A stretch of DNA of 64,000 nucleotides from Chrysophaeum taylorii. Taxonomy: Eukaryota > Sar > Pelagophyceae > Pelagomonadales > Pelagomonadaceae. Location of the stretch: contig JAQMWT010000330.1 in assembly GCA_029834535.1 (NCBI GenBank), forward strand, positions 496,001 through 560,000, written 5' to 3'. This document shows, in pieces, positions 24,468-34,218 of this stretch. How positions within the stretch are numbered: the first letter of the stretch is position 1; each line of letters opens with the position of its first letter. A program made the position numbers and the translations under genes. The notes beneath the pieces were generated by a model. That model was not told the DNA's origin. It worked only from the letters and a program-made list of their open reading frames with translations, and searched no databases.

Positions 24468-25519
24468 CAAGTGCAGGCCAGTAAGTTCACCTAGTCCCAA
24501 TCTCTAACCCCAGTAAGTTCACCTGGTCGCAGTAAGTTCACCTGGTCAGTAAGTTCACCTAGTCCAAATCTCTAACCCCAGTAAGTTCACCGTAAACCCA
24601 CTCGTGCTCACACCCACTCCTTTGAGCTCGTCGCTCTCACCCCCGCCAATCCAAACTGCTATGATCCGCACGCGCCGCCAATCCTTGAGTTTACTCTGAA
24701 AACCCCAGTATGTTCACCTGGTCCCAGTTAGTTCACCTGGGCACTCAGCTCACCTAGTCCCAATCTCTAACCCCAGTAAGTTCACCTGGTCCCAGTAAGT
24801 TCACCTACAGTGCGCGTGTAGACGCCGTGAGGGGGCTTATCGGTATTGCGCAGCACGTGTGGGGTAGGGTGGAGTCGTCGACCCAGAAGAGCAAATCCTC
24901 GGGGTTGCCGATCGACAGAGAGCCACGTAGAGCTGGACGTGACAGAAGACGGGCTTGGGCAAGAGGACGCCGACCTCGCGGGGCGTCTGGCCCTGGCTCT
25001 TGTTGATCGCTTGGCGTAGGCGGGCCTTACGGGATACAGGTTGGAGGAGCCTCGGTGACAACGACACGATCGATCATGTATCTGGTACCGTTGCAGTGGC
25101 CGTGCGACGGGTCGAGGTTGCGAAGACTTTAAGCTCGCGATCAAAGTCAGCATGCCGTTGGTTGTCAGGGAGTTGAAAACTCGACTGTAAAGAGCGAGGC
25201 GTCGTCTTCCGACCCAGCCTAGTCAGCCGAAAAGAACTCCGACGCCTCGTCTCCGGGAAAAAAAGGCCGCGGTCATGCGCGCGTTGTCAGCATCGACAAC
25301 ATCGTTTCGACGGGGCGTGAGAATGGCGCGCTGAAAGAGCCGCCGCGGGTCGTGGAAATAGTCTGCGAGGTCGCCGTAGACGGCTTGGAGGATCACTGTC
25401 TGGCTCTCGCGCCTACCTGATCCTTACTCTCGCGCCTACCTGATCCTTACCCTAAATCGAGGGACAAACAAACAGACAGACAGACAGACAGACAAACATC
25501 TGTCGATTAGTAGTTAGGA
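24468..25519 (-). mobile_element. Helitron-derived unit 1 (1,052 bp), decayed helicase segment
   Basis: On the minus strand this unit reads ESQTVILQAVYGDLADYFHD, then FQRAILTPRRNDVV and, in other frames, LRNLDPSHGHCNGTRYMID and RQAINKSQGQTPREVGVLLP followed by PVFCHVQLYVALCRSAT. These are the late motifs of a Helitron PIF1-type helicase. They lie in different frames with stops between, so the copy is dead. The 5' end of the unit (minus strand) begins TCCTAACTACTAATCGACAG and the 3' end finishes CTGCACTTG. The outer flanks are A before TC and T after TTG, as Helitrons insert between A and T. The left 340 bp hold a subrepeat CCAGTAAGTTCACCTGGTC. The Rep part is missing. Confidence 0.8.
24475..24812. 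repeat. Subrepeat array CCAGTAAGTTCACCTGGTC in unit 1
   Basis: About nine copies of the 19-bp core, some shortened or altered (CCTAGTC, TATGTTCACC), are spread over this stretch. The same array is present in unit 2 at about 25,525-25,855 with internal differences. It lies at the 3' end of the Helitron-derived unit. Confidence 0.75.
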
Positions 25520-26528
25520 CAAGTGCAGGCCAGTAAGTTCACCTAGTCCCAATCTCTAACCCCAGTAAGTTCACCTGGTCCCAGTAAGTTTCATATAAGT
25601 TCACCTGGTCAGTATTATTATTGACAGTAAGTTCACCTAGCTCACACCAACTCCTTTGAGCTCGTCGCTCTCGCCTCCGCCAATCTAAGCTGCTTTGATC
25701 CGCACGCGCCTCCAACCTTTGAGTTTACTCTAAAAACCCTTTACTCTAAAAACCCCAGTATGTTCACCTGGTCCCAGTTTCACCTGGTCACTCAGCTCAC
25801 CTAGTCCCAATCTCCAACCCCAGTAAGTTCACCTGGTCCCAGTAAGTTCACCTACAGTGCGCGTGTAGACGCCGGGAGGGGGCTTATCGGTATTGCGCAG
25901 CACGTGTGGGGTAGGGTGGAGTCGTCGACCCAGAAGATATCCTCGGGGTTGCAGATCGACAGAGAGCCACGTAGAGCTGGACGTGGCAGAAGACGGGCTT
26001 GGGAAAGAGGACGCCGACCTCGCGGGGCGTCTGGCCCTGGCTCTTGTTGATCGTTTGGCGTCGGCGGGCCTTAAGGGATACAGGTTGGAGGAGCCTCGGT
26101 GACAACGACACGATCGATCATGTATCTGGTACCGTTGCAGTGGCCGTGCGACGGGTCGAGGTTGCGAAGACATTAAGCTCGCGATCAAAGTCAGCATGCC
26201 GTTGGTTGTCAGGGAGTTGAAAACTCTACTGTAAAGAGCGAGGCGTCGTCTTCCGACCCAGCCTAGTCAGCCGAAAAGAACTCCGACGCCTCGTCTCCGG
26301 GAAAAAAAGGCCGCGGTCATGCGCGCGTTGTCAGCATCGACAACATCGTTTCGACGGGGCGTGAGAATGGCGCGCTGAAAGAGCCGCCGCGGGTCGTGGA
26401 AATAGTCTGCGAGGTCGCCGTAGACGGCTTGGAGGATCACTGTCTGGCTCTCGCGCCTACCTGATCCTTACTCTCGCGCCTACCTGATCCTTACCCTAAA
26501 TCGAGGGACAAACAAACAAACAGAAAAA

Positions 26529-26543
26529 CGGACGTTTCCGGAC
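26529..26543 (+). repeat. Left 15-bp terminal inverted repeat
   Basis: CGGACGTTTCCGGAC is the perfect reverse complement of 29990-30004. It is followed by a C-run rather than continuing the match. Confidence 0.9.
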
Positions 26544-26569
26544 CCCCCGTGCCGGAAAAAAAAGTACCG

Positions 26570-26940
26570 GCGCCGGAGGCGCCGGCGCCGAAGGCGCCGA
26601 AAAGGTGGCGAAAAGGCGCCGAAGGCGCCGAAGGCGCCGAAAAGGTGGCGAAAAGGCGCCGAAGCGCCGAAGGCGCCGAAGGCCCCAAAGCGCCGAAGCG
26701 CCGAAGCGCCGAAGGCGCCGAAGGAGGCGCCGAAGCCTTCGGGGCCGGCGCTGGAGGCGCCAAAGGCGCCGAAGGCGCCAGCGGCTTTGGCGGCGCCGGT
26801 GACGCCGCCGCCGGAGGCCCTGGCGGCTTTGGCGGCGCCGAAGGCTTTAGTGGCGCCCTCCAGCGCCGTGGCGGCTTCTCCGACGCCGCCGGCGGCTTTT
26901 GTGGTGCCCTCCGGCGTCTCGGCACCTCCGCGCCGCTAAA
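26570..26940. repeat. GCGCCGAAG simple-sequence tract inside the transposon
   Basis: A dense array of GGCGCCGAA-type units, partly palindromic because GGCGCC is self-complementary. Several frames are open here only because of the low complexity, giving Ala/Pro/Ser peptides. No gene is called. Confidence 0.8.
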
Positions 26941-27136
26941 GCCGCTTCTTCGACACCGGCGGCTCGCGCCGCGTAGAAGGACCCTTTCGCGGCCTTCTGG
27001 CACGAGGCTACGGGGTCGGCCCGAGGTTGCTAACCGAAGGGTGATGCTTTTCTTACTTGTTAATGTCAGCTTGTTCCCCCGGCCGCGGACGGCCGGCGGC
27101 TTAGGGCGGTTCCAGGGCGTGCTCGCGGTGTTCGGA

Positions 27137-29659
27137 TTAGTTGCTGCTCGCGATGCGCGGCCGTTTGGCAGCGGGGGCGAAATCGGGGTCGAACGTGTCG
27201 TCGATCTCCTTTCGGAAATTGTGGAAGTTTGCTCTTGAGATTGGGAAATTCCGGCGGGAGATTCCGGGGAGTTTGGAGATCTGACTGACTCGGTCGTCGA
27301 TGTAGTTGGCCTTCATGCCGCCCTTCGCTTCGAAGGCCTTGGGCATCGGATCCGATGGGTTCTTGTGCTTCATATACAACATCGCAAGGTAGCGGCGTAC
27401 GAAGCCGAGGAGTTTGGTGGCAAGTGCGCGCTTTTTGCCAATTTCCATGTTCGACGATGCCAATCCCTTGATTTCGGCGTCGGTTCCCATAAACCTGACA
27501 TACTTGAGCAGATTCTCGCAGCGTCTCTTGTCCTGGCGTGTCATGGTGGGAGGCAATTTATGTCCTAACCACCCGACAACGACATCCACGGCGGCGACGC
27601 CACTGAGTTTGTCGAGGTCGAATGAGGGTGCTGCGCTGGAACGCACGAGCATGTTGTTGGCTGTTGGAGGAGCGGTCGCGTGAGTGCAGGCCGGGAAGAC
27701 GGAGGGTGGGAGAGGGCCTCGAGATTGCATGACCAAAGGCGGCATGACTGCCGCCGGCGTGGGCGGGGGCACGACAACGGCTGTGGGCGCCGGTGCGGGG
27801 ATTGGTGCATTCACGATCTGCTCGGGCTGAGGCACGACAGGGGCCGGGGCCAAGGCCGGGACCGACGCCGATGCCATCGCGGGAGGCGGCGGCGGTGGTG
27901 GAAGCGGAGCGACGGGGTTGTGCGCTGCTGGAGGCGGCAGCGCCGGTGGAGGCGGCAGGAGTGGCTGCTCCGGTGGCTCGATTGGCTGCAGTTGCGGTGG
28001 TTGGGCTGGCAGCGCGACTCCAAAGTTATCGAGCAGGCACCCAACCATCATCTGCAGCTGATCGAACTTTCCGTGGAGTTGATCGAACTTTCCGTGGAGT
28101 TGATCGACCTTTCCGTGGAGCTCGCGGTTTTCGTTGCGCTGGCGAGCCATCTCACGATCCTCATCGCCCGAGATCCAGCGGCCTGTGAGGTGAAGGTTGG
28201 CCTCGTCGAACGCAGAGCGAATTTTGCGGCTCCATTGGCGAAGGACGGCGTCGGGCGCGCCATACTGGGTACTAAAGATATGATTGACGGCGTCTCGAAG
28301 CTTAAGGTTAACGAACAGGAAATAATTGCCGTCCTGCCGCTCGGGGTAGTACATGACGATGCTGGCGAAGGCCGCCGTGATGAGGCTCCACAGCTTCCCG
28401 TCGCGTTGATATTCTTCGGGGTACTGGGTGTCGATCTGAAGCACGGCTTTTATGACATCGACGAGCTTGTCGGGGTCAACGCCGAGGGCGAGGATGACGT
28501 CGATGGACGCCGGCACGGGACCGCGGGGTATTTGGCTCCAAGCCGGCTTGCGCCAGCCCGCGAGGATGATAGCGCCCGGCATGACTTGGCAGTTCAACTT
28601 CCGGAAGTATTCGAAGAATGCTGAGACAGAGCGAAGCTCGTGTCCCGTCACCATTACGCAGTGCTCGAGGGCCAACGAGCCGGCAAGATACTCGCAGACA
28701 CCGTGGCGGAAGCTAGCCGCGGAGGCGTTGTCGGGAGGCTTGTCGTCGCCGCCAGTAATTTCGACGGCTTCGAAGCTGCGAGCACGCGAGCCTCGGGCCG
28801 CCGTTGAGGAATGCGGCAACAGGTCCTTGACGTATCGCCCGATCCTCTTCGCGGAGCTGTCGGTGTTGACGAGGTCGGGGAAGAGCCAGCGAGTGCCGTC
28901 GTCCTCCTGGACTTCGAGGCGATTGAGGACCATGTTGTCGGCAAAGGACGTAAGAATGCAGCGTTCCCACCCGTTCCCCGCAATCCAGGCAGTGAGCTTG
29001 GTCTTCGAGACCTTGGACTGCGGCACCGTGATGAACCACGCGTTGAACTGGACGTCGAAGCGTCCCACGTTTCCTAGCGCCATCCACCTGGGCTCGCTCG
29101 ATCGAGCCCCTGCCATCCAGAGGCCGTGGATCGTGTGGATGCGCTTGGCGGATTCCTGGCTGCCCTTCCGAGCGTAGGCCCGGACAATGCGGTCAATTTG
29201 GCAAGGGTAGATAGCTGGAGCCGTGTGGTCCTCATCTTCGCCCGCCGCCATCGAGCGTTGAGACTTGATGCGCTGGATGTTGTGGCGTATACCACGATAC
29301 CAGACGGCCCATTCCGAGCGCGAATCCGAGTTGAGACACATGAAGAAGTCTTTGACGTCCGCCGCCGCTCCCCGAACGTCGAACCTGGTCTTGGCGGCCC
29401 GGAGGACGATGCCCAAAATGTCGAGGATGCTCGTCGTTCCGAGGCTCGTTTCCTGGACGAGATAGAAGGCGAAGCGTTCCCAAACCCTGGGCGCCGCCAA
29501 GACCGCAACGTCCACATCGCTGAAGGGGCCCCGGGGCCGGTCGCCTTTGCCGTTGGCGAAAGCATTGAAGTGCCGAATCGCGTTCGTTCGAGCTCGGTCG
29601 CGGTCTCCAGACATTCCTGCGCTCCCGATGGTTCCGCTGGGAACCGCGGCGCCGCTCAT
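27137..29659 (-). CDS. Tyrosine recombinase of the Crypton-like transposon, 840 residues
   Basis: Residues about 145-355 hold the catalytic core: HGLWMAGARSSEPRWMALGN (Arg186, box I), ASAASFRHGVCEYLAG (Arg318 with His319), VMVTGHELRSV (His340) and FFEYFRKL (Tyr351 as nucleophile), with spacing as in lambda-integrase-type enzymes. The His of the usual HxxR motif is Ala here. An N-terminal helical domain precedes. A triplicated VDQLHGKF heptad-like stretch near 525 may form a coiled coil, a Pro-rich linker follows, and a C-terminal domain of about 160 residues (WLGHKLPPTMTRQDKRRCEN) is unrecognised. It should excise and insert the element by strand exchange via a covalent phosphotyrosine. A TATA stretch lies only 17 bp upstream of Met1, so Met16 at 29614 may be the real start. 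Confidence 0.85.
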   Translation of the reverse strand: MSGAAVPSGTIGSAGMSGDRDRARTNAIRHFNAFANGKGDRPRGPFSDVDVAVLAAPRVWERFAFYLVQETSLGTTSILDILGIVLRAAKTRFDVRGAAADVKDFFMCLNSDSRSEWAVWYRGIRHNIQRIKSQRSMAAGEDEDHTAPAIYPCQIDRIVRAYARKGSQESAKRIHTIHGLWMAGARSSEPRWMALGNVGRFDVQFNAWFITVPQSKVSKTKLTAWIAGNGWERCILTSFADNMVLNRLEVQEDDGTRWLFPDLVNTDSSAKRIGRYVKDLLPHSSTAARGSRARSFEAVEITGGDDKPPDNASAASFRHGVCEYLAGSLALEHCVMVTGHELRSVSAFFEYFRKLNCQVMPGAIILAGWRKPAWSQIPRGPVPASIDVILALGVDPDKLVDVIKAVLQIDTQYPEEYQRDGKLWSLITAAFASIVMYYPERQDGNYFLFVNLKLRDAVNHIFSTQYGAPDAVLRQWSRKIRSAFDEANLHLTGRWISGDEDREMARQRNENRELHGKVDQLHGKFDQLHGKFDQLQMMVGCLLDNFGVALPAQPPQLQPIEPPEQPLLPPPPALPPPAAHNPVAPLPPPPPPPAMASASVPALAPAPVVPQPEQIVNAPIPAPAPTAVVVPPPTPAAVMPPLVMQSRGPLPPSVFPACTHATAPPTANNMLVRSSAAPSFDLDKLSGVAAVDVVVGWLGHKLPPTMTRQDKRRCENLLKYVRFMGTDAEIKGLASSNMEIGKKRALATKLLGFVRRYLAMLYMKHKNPSDPMPKAFEAKGGMKANYIDDRVSQISKLPGISRRNFPISRANFHNFRKEIDDTFDPDFAPAAKRPRIASSN

Positions 29660-29675
29660 GTTTTGTCGATCCGCG

Positions 29676-29685
29676 TATATATATA
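29676..29685 (-). promoter_or_regulatory. TATA-like element of the recombinase gene
   Basis: TATATATATA lies 17 bp upstream of Met1 at 29659. With usual TATA-to-start spacing, transcription would begin near or within the first codons, favouring the in-frame Met at 29614. Confidence 0.45.
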
Positions 29686-29708
29686 GACTACGTCCGTCGG
29701 ACTCACCC

Positions 29709-29816
29709 CGCGTTCGACTTGGCGACCTCCTCGACTTGGTCGTCCACGACTTGGTCGCACCCCGCTTTCGACTTGGCGACCTCCTCGACTTGGTCGTCCA
29801 CGACTTGGTCGCGTCC
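29709..29816. repeat. 54-bp tandem duplication upstream of the recombinase gene
   Basis: The segment TTCGACTTGGCGACCTCCTC with its continuation CGACTTGGTCGTCCACGACT occurs twice in direct order with few differences. Inside, GACTTGG recurs as a shorter subrepeat. It may be a binding region for the recombinase or transcription factors. Confidence 0.75.
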
Positions 29817-29989
29817 TACGACTTTGGCGCGTCGGACGTTTGGCTCGGCTTTGGCTTTGGCGTCGCATCTATATATCCTCACGCAATGCTTTGGTTTGAA
29901 AATGCCGCGAACGTTGGGCTTCGCGACTCTTCCCCCGGTCCTTCCCCTCTGGTCTTCCGCGTGTAGGAAGCAAGCACTTCTAACGTACC

Positions 29990-30004
29990 GTCCGGAAACG
30001 TCCG
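29990..30004 (-). repeat. Right 15-bp terminal inverted repeat
   Basis: GTCCGGAAACGTCCG is the perfect reverse complement of 26529-26543. Outside it the Helitron-derived sequence resumes with CAGAGACAGACAGAC. Confidence 0.9.
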
Positions 30005-30045
30005 CAGAGACAGACAGACAAACATCTGTCGATTAGTAGTTAGGA

Positions 30046-30690
30046 TACCCTGCGTTCACTACGCGAGGGGGGGGAACGGTTAAGAACAAGTATTTTTACA
30101 ATCACTCGTGTTACGCCGCCGGGAATAAATCTGCGCGCCCTTGACAGTGCTAGGGTCGGATAAGAAAACGAGACTAGCCCGCGCCGCAACGACGGGTCCT
30201 ACAACGCGTGGGCTTTTTCCTTTTTTTGCGTGAGGGGGCGAAAGGATGCCGACTTCACTATGGGGACTAGTTCCATCGCGACGATCTCGCGGCGTGGCGG
30301 CACATACTGCTTGAGTACAAATGAACATAGCTCAGCGATCCGTTGAGTATGTCTTAGTACAAACTGAAACATAGTTAACGGCTCGTACGAACTTTCTTAT
30401 CCGACCCTGCCCTTGTGGTTGGTTTTGGTTTGTTGGTTCTAAGAATACGGAACGTTCGCAGCGGCGCGGTTTTTTATGGCCGGGGGAGGCGCAGAAGAAA
30501 AAGCTAGTGACGAGATGGTTGTCAGTCGAATCGCAGCGTCTTCTTGCATGGCGACAGTCACCAACTCTCCTTCGACGCTCCTTTCACCACCCCTCGTCTC
30601 TTAGCCCCGCGATTCTGATCCTGCGCGCTAGACAGCGTCTGGATTGACTTGCATACGCCCGCAGACGCACTGCCACTGGGCTAGTTATTA
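30046..30690. other. Intergenic stretch, 645 bp
   Basis: No gene is seen. GACAGTGCTAGGGTCGGATAAG near 30,140 and TCTTATCCGACCCTGC near 30,397 form an imperfect inverted pair around GGGTCGGATAAGA, which may mark a small non-coding or transposon remnant of about 270 bp. Confidence 0.45.
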
Positions 30691-33210: not shown

Positions 33211-34218
33211 CGTCGCTTGTAGTAATAGAAACAAATGCGTTGGGGGAGAGTTTTTGATTTACACCCCAGCGCGCAGACGAGGGGTGGTGAAAAGTGGTGA
33301 GGGCTTGATGCTCGAGACGTCCGTAAGTGGCACCAGTGTGTTGTTGCTATGTGGAACTAATAACTCGCGGCGTGCCGTGTTGTTGCAACCCCGCCCGTAG
33401 GTGGGACGGGACACACAACGCAATGCTTGTTTGGGGCGCACCAGGAAGCATGCGGACAACGAGGCCTAGCAGGGCTGTCGGCGAGAGCCAAGAGGGTTGA
33501 AGTTTTGATACAACAAAATATCCTCCGTCGTGAGTAGTAAACAAAGCGCATCACGCGTGCGCGCTACGCACTGTGCGCGAAAGTGTGTGGCCGAAAGACA
33601 AGACGTCGGTTACCTTAATTAGTTAGGCACCACGATTCCGACGCGTCGTAGACAGTTCGAGCGGTGACGTATCTCGATGGGAAAACGCATTGACGAAGCG
33701 CACCGAACCGCCGCTACACACACAACCGGGATGTGACGACCATCACCTAACGTCGTCTAATAAGTCGTAGAGATCGGCATTCTCGTTTAAAATTGCCAGG
33801 TCGTTGTAGAGAATGTCTGGCGTGGCAATGAACAGTAACTCGGACTTGCACTTTCCCTGCTTTGCGGTTGCCCGTGTGTGTGGACTTCCATACCCCATCT
33901 GGCAGAGTGCTTTGCGAGACGAGGCGTCTCCCCACGAGCATCGGAAACGCCACGTCAGCAGCTGCATACGCTGACTCACTCTCCTTCGAGCGCGACAACC
34001 TCGGTGCCGCGTCGTAACGATGTTTAGTGAGCGAGTACATCATCGTCGCTCCATCTTGTATAAAACGCATATTGGCTCCCGACGACCTTGACGACGTCGT
34101 CGGTCGCCGCCATGATCTGAAGAAACCACCGCGAGGGTATCGTCCGCGTGCAGAAAGCAGGCGGGGTTATTATTATTACACAGAGTTTCGCGCGCCGCCG
34201 ACCATACCGATAGGATAT
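33211..34218. other. Gene-poor stretch, 1.0 kb
   Basis: Only short frames without recognisable content are present. GC content drops compared with the flanking genes. The last 100 bp would hold the promoter of the VPS50-like gene. Confidence 0.5.

Follow-up and report, generated by a model that had tools for sequence, protein, structure and literature searches.

A transposon family of Chrysophaeum taylorii with exact inverted repeats, a probable tyrosine recombinase and insertion into TCTG/TTTG arrays

Cryptons, as described, are without terminal inverted repeats, carry 4–6-bp direct repeats and have been proposed to move through a circular intermediate (PMC3212892, Kojima and Jurka), and the same source gives the typical recombinase site as 11–13-bp inverted repeats around 6–8 bp. 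The circle of Tn1549 holds 5–7 heteroduplex bases between inverted repeats, its enzyme accepts differing crossover sequences, and the crossover region of Tn916/Tn1549 is short and may vary in sequence and length (PMC5871717); in one set of 20 Starships, 18 had terminal inverted repeats and 19 had direct repeats of 2–12 bp (PMC12153272). In phaeovirus-type endogenous elements, inverted repeats surround a core of two bases, CC (PMC13236599), and nimavirus recombinases are associated with insertion into the microsatellites of telomeres (PMC10871703). The Tec DNA elements of ciliates carry a tyrosine recombinase (PMC4157794), and two of them, Tec1 and Tec2, additionally encode a DDE transposase (PMC3212892). 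Here we describe a transposon, lying in a 64,000-nucleotide stretch of the pelagophyte Chrysophaeum taylorii (contig JAQMWT010000330.1, positions 496,001 to 560,000; hereafter the window), whose copies combine exact 15-bp inverted repeats with a 3-bp core shared with the target, a fast-changing triplet and one large open reading frame (ORF) for a presumed tyrosine recombinase. In a literature search, no published description of this element was recognised.

A search of the 70.8-Mb assembly (697 contigs) found the 15-bp terminus CGGACGTTTCCGGAC at 47 places with an exact match, making up 17 pairs with both ends exact. In the window itself, the exact inverted termini that a preliminary description had reported were confirmed. 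With up to two mismatches, the genome scan returned 339 places, against 81 for a reversed control pattern. The 40 regions fetched, the window copy (L066) among them, comprised 23 paired copies of 3,267–4,637 bp, seven copies with the left end only, eight unrelated regions, and two regions that were one-ended or a fragment, L081 and L084, which stand outside the junction counts; the paired and left-only copies, with L092 as the 31st, supply the 31 left junctions used throughout. The eight unrelated regions (L083 and L085–L091) had mismatched termini, including CTGACGTTTCCGGAC and CGGACGTTGCCGGAC, and lacked body similarity to the element. These copies establish a mobile, multi-copy family of DNA transposons, 3.3–4.6 kb long and with one large ORF. 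Searches by protein or alignment found no relatives in viral contigs and genome contigs, and tblastn found none in phages; the 41 stretches of viral contigs that contained the 15-mer had a single match apiece and were taken as chance. Within the window, CAA/CGG simple repeats aside, exact inverted 15-mers 0.5–6 kb apart were the element pair and one other. This other pair is 18 bp long (TTTCACCACCCCTCGTCT, 30582–30599 and 33275–33292, about 2.7 kb apart) and accounts for four overlapping 15-mers.

The coding strand is the minus strand of the window, and all junctions are read here on the coding strand. Ordinary copies have the layout TCT-NNN-TKGG-arm at the left and arm-TTTT-TCT at the right, the arms being the 15-bp inverted repeats, so that upstream flanks end in TGTCT-NNN-TKGG before one arm and downstream flanks start TTTTTCTG past the other. 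The TCT lies ten bases before the left arm at 30 of the 31 left junctions and the fourth base before the arm is T at all 31, while the second base of TKGG is mostly G or T (C in L075 and L078; L061 reads TTTG). The right arm is followed by TTTTTCT in 19 of the 23 paired copies, the exceptions being L057, L061, L069 and L076. Excising the element together with one TCT closes the TNTG array in phase in 15 of the 18 testable copies; the remaining three continue TTAAATG, TTAAAGG or TTCC, and the TTAAATG case (L070) restores a natural array border, TTTGTCTTTAAATGTCGACTGC, that is present in the empty unit beside L061. The core common to element and target is TCT (AGA on the plus strand of the window), and this 3-bp sequence is the whole direct repeat, since the adjoining bases differ on the two sides. 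The element itself extends past its inverted repeats, with 4 bp beyond one arm and 7 bp beyond the other. The preliminary description had proposed a genome search for copies and an alignment of their borders, and had staked its reading beforehand on ends that coincide with the inverted repeats; the search yielded the 47 termini and 23 pairs, with borders unlike those it quoted and ends lying beyond the repeats. Its spacer starting with CAGA was likewise abandoned in favour of the layout above.

The target is a (TCTG/TTTG)n array, in agreement with the microsatellite proposed earlier, and mostly lies within a host repeat of about 1 kb, here called R. An R motif occurs no more than 110 bp from 27 of the 31 left junctions; among the other four, L073 had just 18 flank bases. 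L053 was inserted in a TCTG array lacking the R motif. A 16-base R marker matched 2,954 places in the genome with at most one mismatch and its reversed control none, and 1,035 empty R arrays matched the pattern exactly, again with none for the control; those listed consist of TNTG units with few deviations. At all 31 left junctions the coding strand is the TNTG strand, a single direction of insertion such as a non-palindromic core would impose. The nearness of R to so many junctions could also mean that R is the mobile unit and the 3.5-kb element merely its passenger. Such an arrangement is highly improbable: copies occupy differing positions in the array and adjoin R flanks of two classes, the array holding L053 has no R motif, and R is tens of times commoner than the element, with most of its units unfilled. 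R itself measures roughly 1 kb per unit, is both tandem and dispersed, carries a TNTG array, and is seen at 25380–26521 and 30011–30045 of the window; among the matches listed, it forms rows where contigs C1, C5 and C7 begin.

Between the TCT and TKGG of the left end, the triplet NNN varied more than any other of the 2,776 three-base windows compared among ten young copies, a set without the window copy. We compared NNN with the element body in 22 of the 31 copies (231 pairs; L053, L056, L066, L071, L072, L073, L075, L078 and L092 left out). In the 29 pairs less than 0.5% divergent, NNN differences amounted to 0.37 per site, against 0.0030 for the body, and NNN was unlike in 20 of these pairs. 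Thus L054 (CAATTGG) and L058 (ATGTGGG) differ at four of five bases at the site and at 7 of 3,366 in the body, and are alike at the other informative columns of the first ~700 bases, while L063, L064 and L068 have AAA in common at three separate sites with one to four body differences. NNN accompanies the element, is passed on for a time and is often replaced, changing far faster than the body. Copying of NNN from the array was rejected, because TCT in the listed empty arrays mostly precedes GTT or GTC; this GTY of the target is absent from 29 of the 31 left junctions, L066 and L071 (TCTGTCTTGGG, one base longer) being ambiguous.

Gene conversion or local mutation, unrelated to strand exchange, might instead account for this turnover. 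The variants ATG, CTG and GTG are one base apart, and, when all pairs are taken together, the distance between triplets increases with that between bodies (rho 0.47), which makes ordinary descent the source of part of the NNN variation. Against such an origin stand the contrast between L054 and L058 and the position of NNN at the exact centre of the predicted joined-end spacer, and we consider it a possible but doubtful explanation.

The junctions are consistent with a mechanism in which a recombinase would join the two ends into a circle bearing the site arm-TTTT-TCT-NNN-TKGG-arm, the 14-bp spacer of which would be symmetric about the six-base core TCTNNN. TCT would then pair with a TCT of the array and so set register and direction, whereas NNN would be a tolerated mismatch for which no match to the target is needed, and insertion confined to the repeat would give the element a safe landing place. 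The loxP-like joined core of the preliminary description survives in part, in that joining would set the two arms about a core with bases in common with the target, with a spacer in ordinary copies of 14 bp and not of up to 8 bp. In its behaviour NNN can be likened to a crossover 'coupling' sequence, and Tn916/Tn1549 may provide a parallel, with a variable stretch at the predicted centre between inverted repeats and a circle that is predicted for the present element; unlike it, they are bacterial, conjugative and have 11-bp imperfect repeats. Taken jointly, a DNA transposon with a probable tyrosine recombinase, targeted to TCT, with this circle site and with NNN as a tolerated mismatch, is the reading that we hold to be probable.

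The 840-aa ORF carries Arg186, Arg318, His340 and Tyr351 at the positions given in the preliminary description, and its motif order of R, E, K, R, GH and Y is that of tyrosine recombinases, with an R318–H340 spacing of 22, the same as that of R311–H333 in lambda integrase. When the protein was aligned by hhalign to ten phage integrases, R186 was matched to R212 and K216 to K235 of lambda integrase (score 19.7, E 0.11, probability 0.53%), above 60 of 60 column shuffles, and for the N-terminal half realigned alone one of 200 shuffles scored as high. Relatives of the protein within the genome have 26–48% identity, and many are decayed; counted by reading the alignments, over the relatives covering each position, 7 of 9 retain R186 (L100 and L109 have Gln instead), 8 of 8 K216 and 9 of 11 R318, and a Tyr occurs at His+9 in 6 of 10 and at His+11 in 7 of 10. 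The ORF spans at least 800 codons in 13 of 29 copies examined (two of the 29 being short pieces), and pN/pS was 0.32–0.61 in seven copy pairs and 0.28 to 0.87 over five segments (0.31 for columns 140–440, two pairs); judged by these ratios, the ORF is under purifying selection. On the basis of the motif order and one weak profile alignment, the protein is likely to be a tyrosine recombinase, an assignment that is plausible and not proved. Five other ORFs were tested and gave no Pfam match at E ≤ 0.1. One relative, L098 (C531:75300-77000; P0002), has 32% identity and an open frame of 717 codons, with Gln in place of H340, Tyr at His+9 and Phe at His+11, which suggests another family or a domesticated copy. 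A further related multi-copy family occurs on C446, C445 and C550.

Several results weigh against the proposed enzyme and mechanism, in addition to the correlation of NNN distance with body distance. Searches of Pfam, PHROG and PDB with the 840-aa protein gave no recombinase match, the sole Pfam family at E ≤ 1 being a sub-threshold coiled-coil model, and a PF00589 search of the same genome returned none at E ≤ 1. The box-II His (HxxR) is replaced by Ala315, the Tyr stands at His+11 with Phe at His+9 where lambda has its Tyr at +9, and H340 is kept in just 4 of 10 relatives, many of them decayed (otherwise Asn, Gln or Lys). The C-terminal half is out of register with integrases and 18 of 100 shuffles score as well, two single-sequence AlphaFold models were uninformative (mean pLDDT 34.7 and 32.9), and the segment-wise estimates of selection are based on few changes. 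For the mechanism, an exact-pattern search of the whole assembly found the joined-end junction at 0 places, and two-strand exchange followed by replication predicts frequent target GTY at the left, where 29 of 31 junctions are without it.

This last point could be met by one-strand exchange, under which the left junction keeps the element triplet (29 of 31) and the right junction keeps target bases (19 of 23). Integron cassettes are said to use one-strand exchange finished by replication. A separate eukaryotic lineage of tyrosine-recombinase transposons working in this way, with replication completing the exchange (copy-out), the donor staying in place and the triplet acting as a portable coupling sequence, is a tentative proposal that we think rather unlikely as a whole.

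Since no family model proves the recombinase, the inverted repeats and the 3-bp direct repeat might also belong to a DDE cut-and-paste transposon with a TCT target-site duplication and a transposase too diverged to recognise. That origin appears quite unlikely. The inverted repeats lie 4 and 7 bp inside the element ends, and three end bases change among copies with 0.2% body difference, which a transposase that recognises the tips should not tolerate; moreover, the R-E-K-R-GH-Y order and the alignment of box I and K lead to integrases, and Pfam found no DDE domain in the 840-aa ORF or the five others.

The same Pfam searches found no reverse transcriptase or RNase H, unlike DIRS/Ngaro, and the missing DDE transposase separates the element from Tec1/Tec2. 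No viral gene was found in the element, which sets it apart from phaeovirus-type elements and nimaviruses, both large viruses. With Starships, whose captain recombinases are fungal, it shares a tyrosine recombinase (presumed here) and inverted plus direct repeats; Starships are ~20–700 kb long with dozens of genes, whereas this element has ~3.5 kb, one large ORF and no cargo. Cryptons resemble it in having a recombinase-like gene as the only enzyme and a short direct repeat. This content would also fit a true Crypton, from group F, S, A or I, with inverted repeats gained secondarily, and so would the circular route proposed for Cryptons, yet that identity is unlikely: described Cryptons differ in lacking terminal inverted repeats, a contrast to which the preliminary description had pointed, while the present element has exact 15-bp repeats at both ends in 17 copies, a 3-bp and not a 4–6-bp direct repeat, and a variable triplet. 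Its protein also matches no Crypton-derived Pfam domain, neither GCR1_C nor DUF3504 being found in the 840-aa ORF.

If the recombinase reading is correct, the copies of the element display a crossover site with its arms, core, needed match and tolerated mismatch, and the role of homology in such recombination becomes testable from genome sequence. It would also add inverted-repeat ends to the small recombinase-only transposons of eukaryotes, and indicate a naturally occurring enzyme with (TCTG/TTTG)n arrays as its target, entered in a single register and direction.

The window copy is atypical at its left side, which reads TCTGTCTCTG-arm with no TKGG adjoining the arm, and the earlier reading therefore placed the border wrongly. 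Its left end may be TCT-CTG-arm with TGGG lost, because TCT-CTG-TGGG-arm is found in L072 and L074, both close relatives, the former of which also has the same base at position 19. In a fixed register it may instead be TCT-GTC-TCTG, with an array-derived half at the left junction, and its TCT there may be due simply to the periodicity of the array. The flank of this copy had one full-length match in the genome, itself, plus a miniature inverted-repeat transposable element (MITE) inside the flank, and the neighbouring R unit was used as the empty control instead. Feature coordinates are collected in Table 1.

Table 1. Features of the element and its target in the window (positions of the window; a dot marks features given without strand)
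Feature	Position	Strand	Basis
Neighbouring empty R unit, uninterrupted array 25463-25498, unfilled-site control	25380..25519	+	
Host repeat R, one flank of the filled unit	26425..26521	+	Alignment to empty neighbouring unit
AGA (TCT coding), core common to element and target, right junction	26522..26524	-	TTTTTCT 19/23; restored arrays 15/18
AAAA (TTTT coding), right element end beyond inverted repeat	26525..26528	-	Absent from listed empty arrays
15-bp inverted arm, right end in coding orientation	26529..26543	+	Terminus search
GGCGCCGAA-type array between gene and right end	26569..26724	.	Tandem Repeats Finder
840-aa ORF, presumed tyrosine recombinase; R186, E189, K216, R318, H340, Y351; Pro-rich stretch in C-terminal half	27137..29659	-	
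21-bp tandem repeat in ORF, heptad-like HGKFDQL units, perhaps coiled coil	28059..28120	-	CLZ match far below cut-off
54-bp tandem repeat upstream of ORF	29704..29812	.	Region length differs among copies
15-bp inverted arm, left end in coding orientation	29990..30004	-	Terminus search
CAG (CTG coding), read as variable NNN, TGGG of related copies missing	30005..30007	-	L066 vs L072, L074
AGA (TCT coding), core, left junction	30008..30010	-	Junction alignment
Host repeat R, other flank (CAGA array, CATCTGTCGATTAGTAGTTAGGA end)	30011..30045	+	Same-unit alignment, R marker

Elsewhere in the window, eukaryotic-type genes encode polycomb VEFS-box, syndetin and Tub proteins. Twelve AGTAAGTTCACC units are clustered on one strand only at 24480–25841. 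The MITE-like repeat, about 257 bp long with 16-bp inverted ends AGGGTCGGATAAGAAA, occupies 30152–30408 and has at least 39 further places at 98–100% identity (40 of 473 candidates scored).

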